Notes under the pieces: model-generated
Databases searched by the model: none
Seen by the model: only the letters and a program-made list of their open reading frames with translations
What the model was told of the DNA's origin: nothing
Made by a program: the position numbers and the translations under genes
In this document: positions 10,169-18,198 of the stretch, in pieces
Numbering within the stretch: position 1 is the stretch's first letter
How the letters are laid out: each line of letters begins with the position of its first letter
DNA from: a virus
Reading direction: 5' to 3' (one strand)
DNA length: 22,903 nucleotides
Virus record (IMG/VR): IMGVR_UViG_3300043436_001613
Coordinates: 1-22,903 of that record

Positions 10169-10351
10169 GTGGCACATATACGCCCAACCCCTTACGCATT
10201 ACGGCTCATTGCAAAAGCCGATGTGGCGAATGTGTCACGATACTCCACCCCTCACAAGATACGCCCACTCAAACCAAAACCGATGCAATCCATCCCCGGT
10301 CTTGCATCATCCGCATTCCAAGCAATCCAGAAACAGACTGAAGGACGATAA
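10169..10351 (+). CDS. Possible 60-residue leader protein of the late operon
   Basis: A GTG at 10169 opens a frame ending at TAA 10349-10351, which overlaps the start of the MuF gene as TAATG. The product is basic and proline-rich (start MAHIRPTPYALRLIAKADVA, end AFQAIQKQTEGR). The coupled stop/start supports it, and it would fill an otherwise empty stretch; but the start is GTG with no Shine-Dalgarno site, no family is recognised and a second frame is also open here. It may be untranslated leader instead. Confidence 0.35.
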   Translation: MAHIRPTPYALRLIAKADVANVSRYSTPHKIRPLKPKPMQSIPGLASSAFQAIQKQTEGR

Positions 10352-12087
10352 TGCAGACCTACCTCGATGGCTTAAAGTATCTCGCCCGGCGGAAAGTGTT
10401 CCCCGGGCCATTCAACTCGCAGGATTGGGCGTCTGTAGCACCTGCAATCCGCCAAAGGGCATTCTTTAGCTCCACAATCAATTCTGCGCGGGTTCTCCAC
10501 CGGATGCGCTCCATGTTGCTGGATTGGCAGTCCGGGGCCGTAGAAACGATCCTAACGCCATCTGGGGCAACCGAAACCGCATTCAAGGAATCAGGCCTTG
10601 CCAAGTTCCGCGAGAAGGCATCTGAATTGCTCATCAGCGAGGGGCTGGCAACACCCTCCGACTTTAAGAATGAATCGATCCAGAATGTAATCAGCGCATC
10701 CCGGCTTAAATTGATCTTCAACACCAATACCGCCCAAGCCCAAGATTTTGCCATCTACCAATCCCGGGTTGCCGATCCAGTCAGGATCAATCGTTTCCCA
10801 GCCGCTGAATTCGTCCGCACACCGGGGGCAAGGGTTCCCCGGACGCTCCATGTTGCCAACGAGGGCGCTGTGCGGCGCTATGATGACCTTGATTTCTGGC
10901 TTGCTCAAAACTCCGCTGACATCGGCGGGTTCGGCGTTCCATGGGGGCCATGGGGATTCAACAGCTTCATGACCACATTCCCAGTGAGCCGCGCCCGGGC
11001 AGAGAAGCTGGGACTGGTCAAGCCCGGCGAAAAGGTCATGCCTCCCGACCTTACTCAATTCGGCGTAACCTTACCCGCTCGATTAAACAAAGGAGTGACT
11101 GCTGATGTGGATGACATCACGCCGGAGATCAAGCAGCAGGCGATCAACACGATTACATCCAGACTTGGCCCACAGGCTGTCAGGCCGGATGGTAAGTTGA
11201 CGCTAGAGGCACTTCAGGCACTGAGGGGTGGCGGGGCATTGCCTCCGGCTGCCGCTCCGGCTCCTGTTCCGGTTGTTGCTAGGACTAGGTCATTCGATGA
11301 TGTGATTAAAAAACTGAACAAATCAATTACCCCTGAGGTTGAGGAAATTATTTTCAGATATGAGAAGGCAGCCAATAATAAGACCCGGCTTCACAAGGAG
11401 ATGTTAGATCACATGGTCAACAATAGAGAAAAAGAAAGACTGGAAACTAGGGATAAATGGTATGAATCTATAGAACAATTAAATAAACTTCGACCGCAAT
11501 ATCAAATTCAAGTAGATAAGCTAAGGGATGCTGTAAGCATACCAGTTTCGGATAGGGGTGATTTAAAGTGGAGCACTAATAGCATGGAGTCTAAGTATTG
11601 GGCCGCCAATGGGTCTAAGTTAGAGGAGGGAATTGAAATAGTTAAGAGATATACATCTAAGAATGCTTTGGTTGATGTAAGAGTCGCTAGATACAATGAT
11701 CGTGAATATCAAAGCGGCGGGGTCATCTATATAAGCGCAGGCACAAGCCCATCTACTGTAGCGCATGAAATTACTCATGCAATCGAGATAGCAAATAAGG
11801 ATGTTTTGCAGAAGTCTAATGCGTTCCTAAAGAAGAGGGCGAATGGGCAAAAGTTAAAATCGCTAAAGAAACTCACTGGTATCGGGTATAAGAGATATGA
11901 GATGGCATATGAAGATGAGTGGGAAAAACGAGGCGGCAATGTCTATTCAGGGAAATACTACAATGATGCAGCTACAGAAATCCTAACCATGGGCATCGAG
12001 AGACTCCATGCTGACCCCCTGAAATTCTATCGATCCGATCCAGACTACTTTGAGTTTGTGGTTAAGACATTACAGGAATTGCCATGA
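10351..12087 (+). CDS. MuF-like minor head protein fused to a zincin-like metallopeptidase domain
   Basis: A 578-residue protein. Residues about 40-230 match the MuF/SPP1 gp7 minor head fold: RLKLIFNTNTAQAQDFAIYQ (118-137), FPAAEFVRTPGARVPR (149-164), WGPWGFNS (198-205). A linker rich in Ala/Pro (about 293-312) leads to a C-terminal module with VAHEITHAIE (470-479; HExxH, His472, Glu473, His476) and a likely third zinc ligand in ATEILTMG (Glu543), followed by DPLKFYRSDPDYFEFV. MuF proteins sit inside the capsid near the portal and can be ejected into the cell. The C-terminal half is clearly AT-richer than the first half. The peptidase may process virion proteins or act as a polymorphic-toxin tip. 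The start follows GAAGGACGATA, a real Shine-Dalgarno site. Confidence 0.88.
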   Translation: MQTYLDGLKYLARRKVFPGPFNSQDWASVAPAIRQRAFFSSTINSARVLHRMRSMLLDWQSGAVETILTPSGATETAFKESGLAKFREKASELLISEGLATPSDFKNESIQNVISASRLKLIFNTNTAQAQDFAIYQSRVADPVRINRFPAAEFVRTPGARVPRTLHVANEGAVRRYDDLDFWLAQNSADIGGFGVPWGPWGFNSFMTTFPVSRARAEKLGLVKPGEKVMPPDLTQFGVTLPARLNKGVTADVDDITPEIKQQAINTITSRLGPQAVRPDGKLTLEALQALRGGGALPPAAAPAPVPVVARTRSFDDVIKKLNKSITPEVEEIIFRYEKAANNKTRLHKEMLDHMVNNREKERLETRDKWYESIEQLNKLRPQYQIQVDKLRDAVSIPVSDRGDLKWSTNSMESKYWAANGSKLEEGIEIVKRYTSKNALVDVRVARYNDREYQSGGVIYISAGTSPSTVAHEITHAIEIANKDVLQKSNAFLKKRANGQKLKSLKKLTGIGYKRYEMAYEDEWEKRGGNVYSGKYYNDAATEILTMGIERLHADPLKFYRSDPDYFEFVVKTLQELP

Positions 12088-12368
12088 TAGCACCGGACAT
12101 GCAAATCGTTGAATTCAGCCTACTAGGGGTTACTTATCTCTATGAAGGTAGCAAGCCGCCAGTCATTATTACGGACGGCATTGAGAGAACGCCAATAGCT
12201 GAGCAGCTTAACGAGATACTAGCCAGATCAGTTACCCAGCATATCCCCGCTGACGAGCAAATTAGATCGGCATTAAATCAGATAGGGATTCCGGCATCCG
12301 CTAAGTTCAAAATACAATATGCCAGCGATCAGCCTGATGATAACTTGCCTGATGGCGCAATCTACTAG
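12084..12368 (+). CDS. Small acidic partner ORF of the MuF-peptidase gene (possible immunity/regulator)
   Basis: A 94-residue acidic protein (MIAPDMQIVEFSLLGVTYLY at the start, DQPDDNLPDGAIY at the end) whose ATG overlaps the MuF stop as ATGA. It shares the lower G+C of the preceding peptidase-encoding half, while the following ParB-like gene returns to normal composition, so the two probably moved as one block. No family is recognised. Polymorphic toxin genes are commonly followed by a coupled small immunity gene, so an inhibitor of the peptidase is the most attractive guess. A structural chaperone is the alternative. Confidence 0.75.
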   Translation: MIAPDMQIVEFSLLGVTYLYEGSKPPVIITDGIERTPIAEQLNEILARSVTQHIPADEQIRSALNQIGIPASAKFKIQYASDQPDDNLPDGAIY

Positions 12369-12387
12369 CCCATAACACTTCCCACCT

Positions 12388-12882
12388 ATGAAAATAGAAT
12401 CGATAAAACTAGAGAAGCTAATCCCGTATGGAAAAAATTCAAGAACGCACGATGATTTTCAAATCCAGCAGATCGCTGCATCAATCCGGGAATTCGGTTT
12501 CACCAATCCTGTGCTGATCGATTCCGAGGATGGTATCATCGCTGGTCATGGCCGGGTCATGGCTGCGCGGAAGTTAGGGCTGACTGAGGTTCCCTGCATC
12601 CGGCTGGGGCATTTGACCGAGACGCAGAAAAGGGCGTACATCATTGCTGACAACAAGCTGGCGTTGAATTCTGGTTGGGATGAGGAAATGCTTGGGCTGG
12701 AATTGGCTGATCTGCGCGAGGCTGATTTCGATCTGGATCTGATCGGGTTTGATGCCGGGGAGATTGAGGCTGCGCTTAATCCGGCTGAACCTATCCAGTC
12801 TGATAGTGATGATGGCGATAAGATCCAAGATGTTAAGGAACCGATCGAGTGTCCGCATTGTCACATGCACTTTGCCCCATGA
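12388..12882 (+). CDS. ParB/Srx-like nuclease-domain protein with C-terminal zinc knuckle
   Basis: A 164-residue protein with the ParB N-terminal fold: LIPYGKNSRTHDDFQIQQIA (11-30), SIREFGFTNPVLID (32-45), IAGHGRVMAARKLG (51-64) and RAYIIADNKLAL. The C-terminus carries an acidic linker and a CPHC knuckle (155-158) followed by HMHF. In phages this domain is often fused to a DNA methyltransferase; here no methylase follows. Phage ParB-like proteins next to terminase genes may nick or bind DNA during packaging or counter host restriction; the role is not established. It begins 19 nt after the previous stop, without a Shine-Dalgarno site. Confidence 0.88.
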   Translation: MKIESIKLEKLIPYGKNSRTHDDFQIQQIAASIREFGFTNPVLIDSEDGIIAGHGRVMAARKLGLTEVPCIRLGHLTETQKRAYIIADNKLALNSGWDEEMLGLELADLREADFDLDLIGFDAGEIEAALNPAEPIQSDSDDGDKIQDVKEPIECPHCHMHFAP

Positions 12883-13250
12883 ACCCACACGAACCGACAG
12901 ACGAAAATAGACGCCTGATCTCTACCCTGTGTGGCATCGGGGTTCCGCAGAAAATGATCGCTGCTCAAATCGGCATCGATGAAAAGACGCTGAAGAAGTA
13001 TTATGATGATGATATGAGCAAAGGCAGGGCAAAGGCAACCAGTCAAATCGCCAAGCGCTTGTATGACATTGCAATGAGCGATTCCAAGGAAGCCCTGACT
13101 GCTTGTATCTTTTGGCTTAAATGCCGGGCCAACTGGTCAACGCTTGATGGCCCAGAGGTACAGGTGAATGTTCAGAATAACTCAATCGTCCATTCCGATG
13201 ATGGAGAGATAAAGGAATTCAAGAAACGTTGGAACGCAATCGATGTCTGA
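12879..13250 (+). CDS. Terminase small subunit (TerS)
   Basis: A 123-residue protein with an N-terminal helix-turn-helix: RRLISTLCGIGVPQKMIAAQ (residues 11-30), then IGIDEKTLKKYY, as in small terminase subunits that recognise phage DNA for packaging. The rest is helical (ATSQIAKRLYDIAMS, ACIFWLKCRANW) and matches the TerS pattern seen before large terminase genes. The ATG at 12879 overlaps the ParB stop as ATGA; a GTG further upstream (12849) is less likely. It overlaps TerL by 8 nt, as is usual for terminase pairs. Confidence 0.85.
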   Translation: MNPHEPTDENRRLISTLCGIGVPQKMIAAQIGIDEKTLKKYYDDDMSKGRAKATSQIAKRLYDIAMSDSKEALTACIFWLKCRANWSTLDGPEVQVNVQNNSIVHSDDGEIKEFKKRWNAIDV

Positions 13251-14607
13251 TATCAAACCCGATCTTGATCTTGGCCCGTTCGCGTTCGGTGTCCTTGGGC
13301 TGCGTCCGTATGACTGGCAGATCAAGGCATTCAAGGGGATCAATGATCATCCTCGCACATCCCTAGTCGCCGCGAATGGATCCGGCAAGACCGCTGCCGT
13401 GATCGCCCCGGCAATTCTATGGTGGCTAGCAATGTTCCCCAAAGGCCGGATTCCTGTCACATCTGGCTCATGGCGGCAGGTGCTGCTTCAGCTATGGCCC
13501 GCCATGGAGAAATATCGGGGGCATCCATTATTCCAAGGGTGGACATGGAATCAGGCTGAGATCAGAACCCCGGAGGGCGGATGGGCATCGGGATTCTCTA
13601 CTGACAACCCGGGCCGGGCTGAGGGATATCACCGGACAGATGATAGCCCTGTCCTGTATGTGTTGGATGAGGCTAAGACCATTCCAGACGGCATCAAGGC
13701 TGCGGTTGACCGATGCACGACAAACCGGATCCTTGCCGCTTCATCGCCGGGCGCTCCGATGGGGTGGTTCTTCCGCTCGCAGCATGAGGAATCCTCGCAT
13801 TGGTGCAGGGTCAAGGCTAGGTCGGATGAATGCCCCCACATCGACCCGGAGAAGAGAATCCGGGATCTTGAGATTTATGGGGAAAAGCATCCGATCTTTA
13901 GGTCAATGCACCTTGCCGAGTTTGCCGAGGATGTTGATCGCTTGATCCTGACCAGCGATGCGCTGATCGGCGCTGTTGATAACCCACCTGAGCCACATGG
14001 TGATACTGTGGTTGCATTCTGTGACTTTGCCGCCGGGCGGGATGAGAATGTCCTTGCCGTGCGCCGGGGTAACTCCGCCCGGATCGTTAAGGCATGGGCT
14101 GAGAAGGATACCATGCAGGGCGTCCGGCAGTTCATCCGGGCATTTGAGGGTGAACAATTGAAGGCATCACAGATTTGGGGCGATGCTGATGGGTTGGGTA
14201 CTGTCATGATCGATGCGCTTGCCGAGCATGGCTGGCGGATCAACCGATTCCATGGCGGAGCAAGATCGCGTGAGCCGAATGAATATATGAACCTGATTGG
14301 CGAAGTCTGGCATGTAGGATGTCGGGAGATCGCCCGGGGCCGGATCAGGTTGGATGGATTGGATCAGGTGGCATTTAAGCAGTTGACCAGTCGCAAGACC
14401 GAATGGAGTGAGAATGGTAAGCTAAGGGTTGAATCCAAGGAAACCATGAGAGCATCCGGGTTGAAATCTCCCGACCGGGCGGACGCATTGCTTGGCTGCA
14501 TTGTCTGTGGGCCATCGATGCAGGGTATGATGACTGGTGATGATCCGGTTAGGTCGCGCCGATCTGACTTCTCTTCCCCGCGCCGATCAGGGTTCAATGC
14601 TATGTGA
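13243..14607 (+). CDS. Terminase large subunit (TerL)
   Basis: A 454-residue packaging motor and nuclease. ATPase: Walker A AANGSGKT (43-50), Walker B VLYVLDEA (137-144), coupling motif ASSPG (166-170). RNase H-like nuclease: FCDFAAGRDEN (259-269, Asp261), GDADGLG (313-319), and SPDRADALLG near the C-terminus. TerL drives DNA into the procapsid through the portal and cuts the concatemer. Length and motif order are those of a complete protein. It overlaps TerS by 8 nt and lies immediately before the portal gene. Confidence 0.95.
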   Translation: MSDIKPDLDLGPFAFGVLGLRPYDWQIKAFKGINDHPRTSLVAANGSGKTAAVIAPAILWWLAMFPKGRIPVTSGSWRQVLLQLWPAMEKYRGHPLFQGWTWNQAEIRTPEGGWASGFSTDNPGRAEGYHRTDDSPVLYVLDEAKTIPDGIKAAVDRCTTNRILAASSPGAPMGWFFRSQHEESSHWCRVKARSDECPHIDPEKRIRDLEIYGEKHPIFRSMHLAEFAEDVDRLILTSDALIGAVDNPPEPHGDTVVAFCDFAAGRDENVLAVRRGNSARIVKAWAEKDTMQGVRQFIRAFEGEQLKASQIWGDADGLGTVMIDALAEHGWRINRFHGGARSREPNEYMNLIGEVWHVGCREIARGRIRLDGLDQVAFKQLTSRKTEWSENGKLRVESKETMRASGLKSPDRADALLGCIVCGPSMQGMMTGDDPVRSRRSDFSSPRRSGFNAM

Positions 14608-16581: not shown

Positions 16582-17179
16582 ATCATTCATCACGATTGAG
16601 GCGACTGGTCTGGATGAGGCTAAGTTAGCGGCATTGAAGTTGGCTACCCCCGCTGTCCGCCGGGCCGCTGTATTGCAGGGTGGTGAGGATGCTATCGAAG
16701 AGATTCGCAAGTATTACGCCATGGCTGGGCGGACAAAGTGGGTTAATCCGTCCCTGCCGACTCATGGCCCGGGGCGTGAGATGACAAGGTGGTGGGAGGG
16801 AACTGCTCGAGGTTGGAGTTTATCGCAGCCGAATAATAACAAGGTCACATTTAGTAATTCGACAATTGGTTTCGCCCATAAAGTTACGGGTGGCGTGATT
16901 CGGGCAAAGCGAAAGCGATCGCTGACGATACCAATCGTTCCTGAAGCTCACGGAAAAACCGCGAAGGAATACTCAAACCGGGTTAATCCTTTGTTCCGGG
17001 TCAAAGGTGTGTTGGCCGAAGCGGATCCGAATGCACCTAACGGAATCCGCGCAATCTATGCTCTCAAGAAATCAGTAACCCATTCGCCATGGAAGAATGC
17101 TCTGCCACCTGAGCAATCATATACCGATGCATTTTTGAATGGTGCGCTTGATTACCTTATATCTCAATTCGATAGTTGA
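16562..17179 (+). CDS. Mu gpG-like phage virion morphogenesis / tail completion protein
   Basis: A 205-residue protein. The middle segment GFAHKVTGGVIRAKRKRSLTIPIVPEAHG (about 101-129) matches the H-x-x-G-x-I...aLxIPl pattern of phage virion morphogenesis proteins (Mu gpG/HK97 gp10-like), which finish heads or attach tails. The N-terminus (LDEAKLAALKLATPAVRRAA) is helical and also typical. The start at 16562 follows AAAGGAATAGAGG (a usable Shine-Dalgarno) and overlaps the previous gene by 20 nt. It ends 5 nt before the protease/scaffold gene. Confidence 0.8.
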   Translation: MALKTGKSFITIEATGLDEAKLAALKLATPAVRRAAVLQGGEDAIEEIRKYYAMAGRTKWVNPSLPTHGPGREMTRWWEGTARGWSLSQPNNNKVTFSNSTIGFAHKVTGGVIRAKRKRSLTIPIVPEAHGKTAKEYSNRVNPLFRVKGVLAEADPNAPNGIRAIYALKKSVTHSPWKNALPPEQSYTDAFLNGALDYLISQFDS

Positions 17180-17184
17180 CATTT

Positions 17185-18198
17185 ATGGCTTTATATGATT
17201 ATCTCCCCTCGATGTTTCGCAGTTCCGAGATCGTAACCGCTGCAATCCAGTCTGAGCTATCAGACTTGGCCGGATCGATTGTCTACCTACCTGAAGGTCA
17301 ACACCGCATCAATGCGACTGTCGGAGGTAAGGCTAAATCGGTTGATGTCCTAGTTGATTCCCGGGTTGCTGCTTCATTCTCTGAAGACCTCAACAAACGC
17401 TTTGAATCTAATGTCCGCCCATTCGCCGGGTTCGACCACAAGCAAGGCGCTGCGTCATTCATCCCCAAGGAATTCCGCTACGAAGATGGCGTTGGCTTGG
17501 TTCTGGATGTCGAATGGACTGAAGCCGGACGCAAGGCTGTTGAAGGCCGCGATTACTCCTACTTCTCCCCTACTTTCCTTCTCTCCAAAGATGGCGTTCC
17601 GATCGGCCTCGCAAAGCGTGGTGAAATTGGTTCTCTGGTAAATGATCCAGCATTTGAGGAAATCCCGCGCATTGCCGCATCTCACAACGAACAAATTGAT
17701 ATGACTGAACAACTGATCGAATTGGGTCTGGTTGAGGCGAGCGAATCGCCCGATACCGCCCTTGAAACCGCCAAGGCAAATCTTGCCGCTCTCCGTGAGT
17801 CTGCTTCACTTGCCGAGCAAGTCGAAGCTGCTAACGCCAGCAAGAAAACCGCCGAGGAACAACTCGCTGACATGGAAGCAGCATACGCCAAGCTGAAATC
17901 GGAATACGAAGACATGAAGAAGCAACTTGGCGACAAGGCCATGGCTTCCGCTGATCTCGTAATCGATGAAGCAATCAAAGCCGGACGCATTGCCCCTCAA
18001 GATGAGGATGCCAAATCGTTCTGGAAAACCGCAATTCTCGCTGATGAGAAAGCTGCCAAGGTTCTCGCATCGCTTCCGGGCAATGAGGCCATTAACGGAG
18101 CTACGATCCTTGCTGGTCGCATCGAAGAAACCCCTGCTGTTGAACTGACCGGGCTTGCTCGCGTCGAAGCAGCATTTAAAGCACAACAATCCAAATAA
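17185..18198 (+). CDS. Mu gpI-like head maturation protease/scaffold
   Basis: A 337-residue protein. The N-terminal part (about 40-165) resembles the Mu I protease family: FAGFDHKQGAASFIPKEFRY, VLDVEWTEAGRKAV, RDYSYFSPTF, with His and Ser residues in the DH and YFSP motifs as expected. Residues about 175-260 form a coiled coil (AEQVEAANASKKTAEEQLAD, KLKSEYEDMKKQLG), the scaffold part. In Mu an internal in-frame start makes a free scaffold, and a Met at residue 173 (17701) sits exactly at the domain boundary here. ATG 17185 is preferred over the TTG at 17176, which lies inside the previous stop. Codon use is biased toward CGC/CTC, like the capsid gene. Confidence 0.9.
   Translation: MALYDYLPSMFRSSEIVTAAIQSELSDLAGSIVYLPEGQHRINATVGGKAKSVDVLVDSRVAASFSEDLNKRFESNVRPFAGFDHKQGAASFIPKEFRYEDGVGLVLDVEWTEAGRKAVEGRDYSYFSPTFLLSKDGVPIGLAKRGEIGSLVNDPAFEEIPRIAASHNEQIDMTEQLIELGLVEASESPDTALETAKANLAALRESASLAEQVEAANASKKTAEEQLADMEAAYAKLKSEYEDMKKQLGDKAMASADLVIDEAIKAGRIAPQDEDAKSFWKTAILADEKAAKVLASLPGNEAINGATILAGRIEETPAVELTGLARVEAAFKAQQSK

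Follow-up and report, generated by a model that had tools for sequence, protein, structure and literature searches.

A zincin-like tip on a MuF-like phage head protein and its adjoining small gene: an exchangeable cassette and candidate toxin-immunity pair

Polymorphic toxins built on MuF proteins have been described (Jamet et al. 2017, PMC5576092; Zhang et al. 2012, PMC3482391), with metallopeptidase tips as a known minority among them (20% of 191; PMC5576092; PMC3482391). The MuF protein gp7 of SPP1 lies near the portal inside the head (cited in PMC5576092). The general kind of system considered here is thus already known, since MuF toxins that have both a metallopeptidase tip and a small ORF downstream have been described. 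Zincins of the MPTase type are also found in polyvalent proteins (Iyer et al. 2017, PMC5512222), where the passages of that paper dealing with them tie them mainly to the processing of large proteins and describe no cognate small partner. Bxa, a prophage toxin, is blocked by an immunity protein, Bsi, that binds it (PMC11699363).

The locus under study lies in a 22,903-base virus record (IMGVR_UViG_3300043436_001613, positions 1 to 22,903; the whole stretch is referred to as the window) and encodes a 578-residue protein consisting of a stem, a linker, and a C-terminal HExxH-bearing tip (type A), followed by a gene for a 94-residue partner (Table 1). As in MuF polymorphic toxins, a MuF stem is joined to an exchangeable and presumably enzymatic C-terminal tip, with a small ORF directly behind. 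Unlike those toxins, the type A tip falls outside the Pfam, NCBIfam, and PADLOC models searched and has no solved relative, is also carried by non-MuF head proteins (PF06152), and occurs in phages in which no integrase was detected, and its partner has a conserved C-terminal end. With the MPTase zincins of polyvalent proteins, so far as the relevant passages of PMC5512222 describe them, the tip shares an HExxH helix followed by a Glu helix and a place on phage head or injected proteins. Bxa with Bsi and BAH is similar in that a prophage toxin is accompanied by cognate immunity proteins, Bsi acting by binding; unlike the type A tip, Bxa is an experimentally proven ADP-ribosyltransferase (PMC11699363).

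Table 1. Positions of the head protein gene, its parts, and the adjoining partner gene in the window
Feature	Position	Strand	Basis
MuF stem, linker, and type A zincin-like tip; 578 aa, intact ORF	10351..12087	+	ORF translation, PHROG 220, hhalign
MuF-like stem, residues 1-292	10351..11226	+	PHROG 220; hhalign to PF04233 stems; tipless sisters
Pro/Ala linker, residues about 293-312; exchange site	11227..11286	+	DNA similarity to L010-L014 ends at 11274
N-terminal helical part of tip, residues 313-395	11287..11535	+	AlphaFold model helices 3-13, 16-44, 48-83
Zincin-like domain, residues 396-578	11536..12084	+	Conservation, AlphaFold model
HEITH, residues 472-476	11764..11778	+	H, E, H invariant in 50 tips; HExxH in 80/80 loci
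Tyr532, invariant	11944..11946	+	Alignment of 50 dereplicated tips
Glu543 in TEILTMG, probable third zinc ligand	11977..11979	+	Invariant in tip alignment
Partner gene, 94 aa, candidate cognate inhibitor	12084..12368	+	Pairing with tip A, dN/dS, AlphaFold
Partner C-terminal residues DGAIY, conserved [IVLM][YHF] end	12351..12365	+	23/35 partners vs 9/516 control ORFs
Exchange segment: linker end, tip, and partner	11275..12367	+	One-block replacement in L010-L014

The MuF-like stem and the zincin-like tip

A sequence-only reading of the window had assigned a MuF domain to the head protein, and profile comparisons indicate that this assignment of the stem is right but remote. A Pfam search with the 578-residue protein did not reach PF04233. 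The stem is matched by PHROG 220 ("minor head protein"; E = 6e-8), and a stem profile compared with true PF04233 stems by hhalign gave 95.8% probability (E = 8e-9 over the MuF core). Proteins annotated as "head morphogenesis" in the Akkermansia phages Chambord and Chantilly are 37% identical. Sister stems occur with or without a tip, the tipless forms being about 295 residues long. Two further features named in the same reading were also located, namely the Ala/Pro-rich linker, at about residues 293-312, and a separate gpI-type protease, encoded at 17176-18198 (PF10123 match in the Pfam search). The MuF gene of the window stands upstream of the terminase and portal genes (10351-14607), while in Mu and SPP1 it comes after the portal gene; the head-morphogenesis gene of Akkermansia phage Chambord likewise precedes the terminase genes.

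Residues 472-476 of the head protein read HEITH and residue 543 is Glu, the candidate third ligand. An HExxH motif turns up in 0.5% of shuffles of the 578-residue protein, which makes a chance origin of the motif by itself moderately unlikely; conservation decides whether the site is real. All 80 viral loci recovered with two bait peptides (E[IV]L[TS]MG[IAM][QE] and [SNR]DP[DE][YF][FY][ESQ]F, neither of which contains HExxH and one of which contains Glu543) keep the HExxH motif, the conservation on which the sequence-only reading had staked its claim, followed by E-[IVD]-[LFV]-[TS]-M. A first alignment of eight rows was too divergent to supply bait, and a closer alignment was used. Across 50 dereplicated tips, H472, E473, H476, Y532, E543, L545, M547, and G548 are invariant, and R451, R496, E517, G534, Y537, D563, and P564 are nearly so. 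Among close relatives the dN/dS of the tip is 0.05-0.10, and the type A tip is under purifying selection.

The AlphaFold model of the tip (residues 313-578; pLDDT about 97, pTM 0.91) contains a helical part followed by a core of one helix, three strands, the HExxH helix, and the Glu helix. The order of these predicted elements is that of a zincin, a judgment made from topology because Foldseek returned no significant fold match in the PDB. The three best PDB matches, PprI, LTA4H, and M61 (E 0.76-1.7), are sub-significant and all zincins, and at E<=0.001 Foldseek found only uncharacterised viral proteins (BFVD). The zincin region is covered by PHROG 33618 (E = 1e-15), 20397, and 8561, all uncharacterised families. 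Searches of Pfam, NCBIfam, and PADLOC with the tip gave no reliable match, a PDB sequence search with the 578-residue protein gave nothing, and a PDB search with a tip profile gave sub-significant similarity to snapalysin and ArdC (E 0.09-0.65). Weak matches of the tip to YlqD, DUF7041, and 4HPPD were discarded as chance. Significant matches of the tip are thus confined to uncharacterised PHROG and BFVD viral proteins, with none in Pfam, NCBIfam, or the PDB; as for the gluzincin fold anticipated in the sequence-only reading, the model has a confidently predicted zincin-like topology and no significant gluzincin match (best Foldseek E = 0.76). Conservation and the confident model support a zinc-peptidase-like tip on a MuF stem, as had been proposed; such a tip would bind zinc and act as a protease.

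Exchange and recurrence of the cassette

Several phages possess stems that are 95-99% identical and C-terminal ends that are different. The window is 96% identical to its sister L010 up to position 11274, followed by an unrelated block, and similarity returns from 12368, the last base of the partner stop codon. Throughout L010-L014, DNA similarity ends at window position 11274, within the linker, and resumes at 12368-12370; the tip and the 94-residue gene are therefore one exchanged block. In L010-L014 this block is replaced by another HExxH protein, the type B tip (HEIGHW...E[MI]FARAY), followed by a small gene of its own (53-58 aa). The type B tip resembles LPD1 weakly (E = 1.7e-4, below cut-off) and fits the MPTase description given in the pertinent passages of Iyer et al. 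2017 (PMC5512222), with an Asp three residues after HExxH and a conserved upstream His. When tips A and B were compared by hhalign, only the HExxH half was common (93%). In two other pairs of sisters, L021/L022 and L071/L072, tip and small gene are present in one and absent from the other between flanks that are 92-97% identical.

Pairing was counted over 68 unique sister MuF proteins and is strict. Tip A occurs with partner A (4/4), tip B with partner B (15/15), and tipless proteins have no partner (49/49), such that a small downstream ORF is present behind 19/19 tip-bearing sisters and 0/49 tipless ones. Types A, B, and none are found on stems that are at least 55% identical. The tip and the adjoining 94-residue gene form one cassette; that the gene at 12084-12368 belongs to it had been missed by the sequence-only reading. 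The polymorphic-toxin character proposed there gains strong support from the swapping of tips between near-identical phages, the second zincin type, and the tipless form.

These observations bear on two other explanations. Small genes are common in head operons, and the partner could be an ordinary head or neck gene unconnected to the tip. This is already contradicted by the pairing of tip and partner, the gene being missing from 49/49 tipless sisters and swapped along with the tip; moreover, tip B has a different partner, and the C-terminus is conserved across unrelated phages, which leaves the explanation barely credible. Head maturation, which the sequence-only reading had offered in the alternative, would have the tip cleave capsid or scaffold proteins, and the position of a peptidase-like domain on a head protein would suit this. 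Such a role is disfavored, and appears very improbable, because the tip is dispensable (49/68 sister MuF proteins are tipless) and the window has a gpI-type protease gene of its own elsewhere (17176-18198); in addition, some sisters have a different zincin in place of the tip.

In L032 (2231-4861; a Verrucomicrobia MAG) the same stem carries a very long and different C-terminal part (876 aa in total), which looks kinase-like and ART-like by eye and has no Pfam match. A second variable site lies beside the cassette (window 12388-12882, and between 12788 and 12877). Its ParB_N gene is short in the window and fused to an N6/N4 DNA methylase in L010; in sister phages it is followed either by a gene for Mom DNA modification (L011) or by genes for an ABC-ATPase and a GNAT protein (L026).

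Beyond the sister group, type A tips are found on PF04233 and PF06152 head proteins and on other head-related PHROG families, in phages of Flavobacterium, Planktothrix, Bacillus, Xanthomonas, Lactococcus, Streptococcus, and Akkermansia, and also in Verrucomicrobiota genomes, one of them in a 1.8-Mb contig. A small gene recurs behind the tip on unrelated head proteins in Lactococcus, Streptococcus, Bacillus, Planktothrix, Flavobacterium, and Akkermansia phages, and tip and small gene occur together in the cultured phages Lactococcus 62503, S. pyogenes 315.3, Bacillus vB_BboS-125, PaV-LD, and pippi8-1. In Bacillus phage vB_BboS-125 (L195 2834-3438) an unannotated partner-like ORF ending in EGAIV lies behind the tip-bearing head protein, and Planktothrix phage PaV-LD (L003 4100-6622) encodes two type A-domain proteins in tandem, the second followed by a partner gene. 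Type A-like domains are also present on plasmids (L196 2963-4725, L197 3074-4480, and L198 3038-4789; Leptolyngbya, Rhodococcus, and Spartinivicinus); the gene adjoining the Rhodococcus tip looks unlike a partner, and no partner was seen in Spartinivicinus. Searches for integrase, resolvase, and rve domains (PF00589, PF00239, and PF00665) found none in five sister contigs of 33-36 kb, which may be incomplete. Integrase-bearing phages with tips include 315.3 and PaV-LD (type A) and Chambord (type B).

Some type A proteins invite a reading in which the tip cuts its own or a neighbor's polypeptide, in the procapsid or after injection, so that the stem is freed or made to fit, with the partner setting the timing. 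Some of them are long and multi-domain (L128, with MuF-like and ART-like PHROG matches), others have sequence after the zincin (Rb1 and L161), and autoprocessing has been proposed for zincin domains of polyvalent proteins, the P1 protein DdrB being processed before packaging, according to the passages of PMC5512222 on these domains. In the window and most relatives, however, the zincin stands at the end and no further enzyme-like domain is present, which leaves no second effector that could be freed, and sister stems work without any tip. We consider autoprocessing unlikely.

The partner gene and its conserved end

A simple scan found an ORF of 55-130 residues behind 51/54 dereplicated tips, although for at least three tips the ORF picked was in an incorrect frame and a better candidate was available; corrected frame selection gave 45 plausible partners. 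The window partner starts within the tip stop codon, the two overlapping as ATGA (12084), and the same start at -4 is seen in 25/45 partners. The partner dN/dS is 0.02-0.07. AlphaFold predicts for the window partner a beta-beta-beta-alpha-alpha-beta arrangement and a loose tail (pLDDT 81 overall, about 56-63 in the tail); a structure search of the PDB found no relative, and the protein is in no PHROG.

Outside close relatives the partners are hardly alike (8-20% identity), and the pattern common to them consists of strands, G.W, two helices, a strand, and an acidic end. An [IVLM][YHF] end is present in 23/35 dereplicated partners as compared to 9/516 control ORFs (p = 7e-25, which takes the dereplicated proteins as independent, as they are only in part). 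Single-linkage clustering of the tips at 40% gave 8 groups, 3 of them with the [IVLM][YHF] motif (p = 3e-4); dereplicated partners were used for the end-motif test because this clustering collapsed to so few groups. Few partners were recovered in a held-out five-fold HMM test of the partner family, in part because the decoys still contained true partners, and a search with the full-set HMM gave four extra matches with E<0.3, all of them just behind a tip. Since the sequences diverge and the HMM recovers few, it is by position, size, pattern, and C-terminus that the partners are grouped into one family. In an Akkermansiaceae MAG (L039 4228-5247; L192) the tip is without its HExxH half and the partner gene is intact. 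This state would be expected if immunity outlives the toxin; an assembly error is another possible explanation.

Proposed function and its meaning

The reading we favor, and regard as fairly probable, is that of a virion-packaged protease effector with its cognate inhibitor, i.e., a MuF polymorphic toxin-immunity pair. The stem would place the head protein near the portal inside the capsid, and the C-terminal zinc metallopeptidase would be carried as capsid cargo; given the location of MuF proteins close to the portal within the head, packaging of the tip and its entry into the host along with the DNA would follow. The translationally coupled 94-residue protein would bind the peptidase and keep it off in the producing cell, and perhaps also protect lysogens or superinfected cells. 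Upon infection the head protein would enter the next host, where the peptidase, away from fresh partner, would cut a host target. Synthesis of a peptidase late in infection would damage the producing cell, a problem that a coupled small inhibitor, swapped along with the peptidase, would solve. As a counterpoint to this toxin reading, no integrase was detected in the sister contigs, while MuF toxins have been reported only from temperate phages. Since the five sister contigs are without detectable integrases, protection of the producing cell may outweigh that of lysogens.

Inhibition would probably be effected by the acidic, [IV][YHF]-ended tail of the partner placed in the active site. A hydrophobic-aromatic C-terminus on a loose acidic tail is, as a conjecture, what may be expected of a product-like plug of the zinc site. 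More tentatively, and with less confidence than the pair itself, we suggest that the partners constitute a new inhibitor class, whose disordered acidic [IV][YHF] tail would lie product-like in the zinc site, and that the pair would be a portable two-gene module silencing a capsid protease until the next host, employed by widely differing phages, among them some without a detected integrase.

The injected peptidase might instead remove a restriction or other defence protein early in infection, with the partner protecting only the producing cell or the virion proteins. This possibility is consistent with the weak profile similarity of the tip to the antirestriction protein ArdC (6i89, E = 0.65) and with the DNA-modification genes (N6/N4 methylase and Mom) that sisters hold at the second variable site, 12388-12882. 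It is rather doubtful, as the ArdC similarity is not significant and may reflect just the common HExxH core, and there is no known host target. An anti-defence effector is a sub-case of the virion-packaged toxin-immunity pair and does not contradict it.

Compared with the described systems, the tip A family (the 12 MPTase clades of Iyer et al. 2017 standing outside this comparison), the partner family and the conserved end of its members, and the natural exchanges with their exact boundaries appear new, as does the use of the tip on head proteins other than MuF and in phages in which no integrase was detected. Published metallopeptidase tips on phage head proteins are apparently known as domain predictions only. 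Here, natural swaps and deletions between near-identical phages tie each tip to one small gene. Because of these natural swaps and the presence of the pair in cultured phages (e.g., Lactococcus phage 62503), the delivery of a protease by the capsid and the survival of its maker can be tested by ordinary biochemistry. A tail-type inhibitor family, if true, would enlarge the small set of protein inhibitors known to act on zinc proteases.
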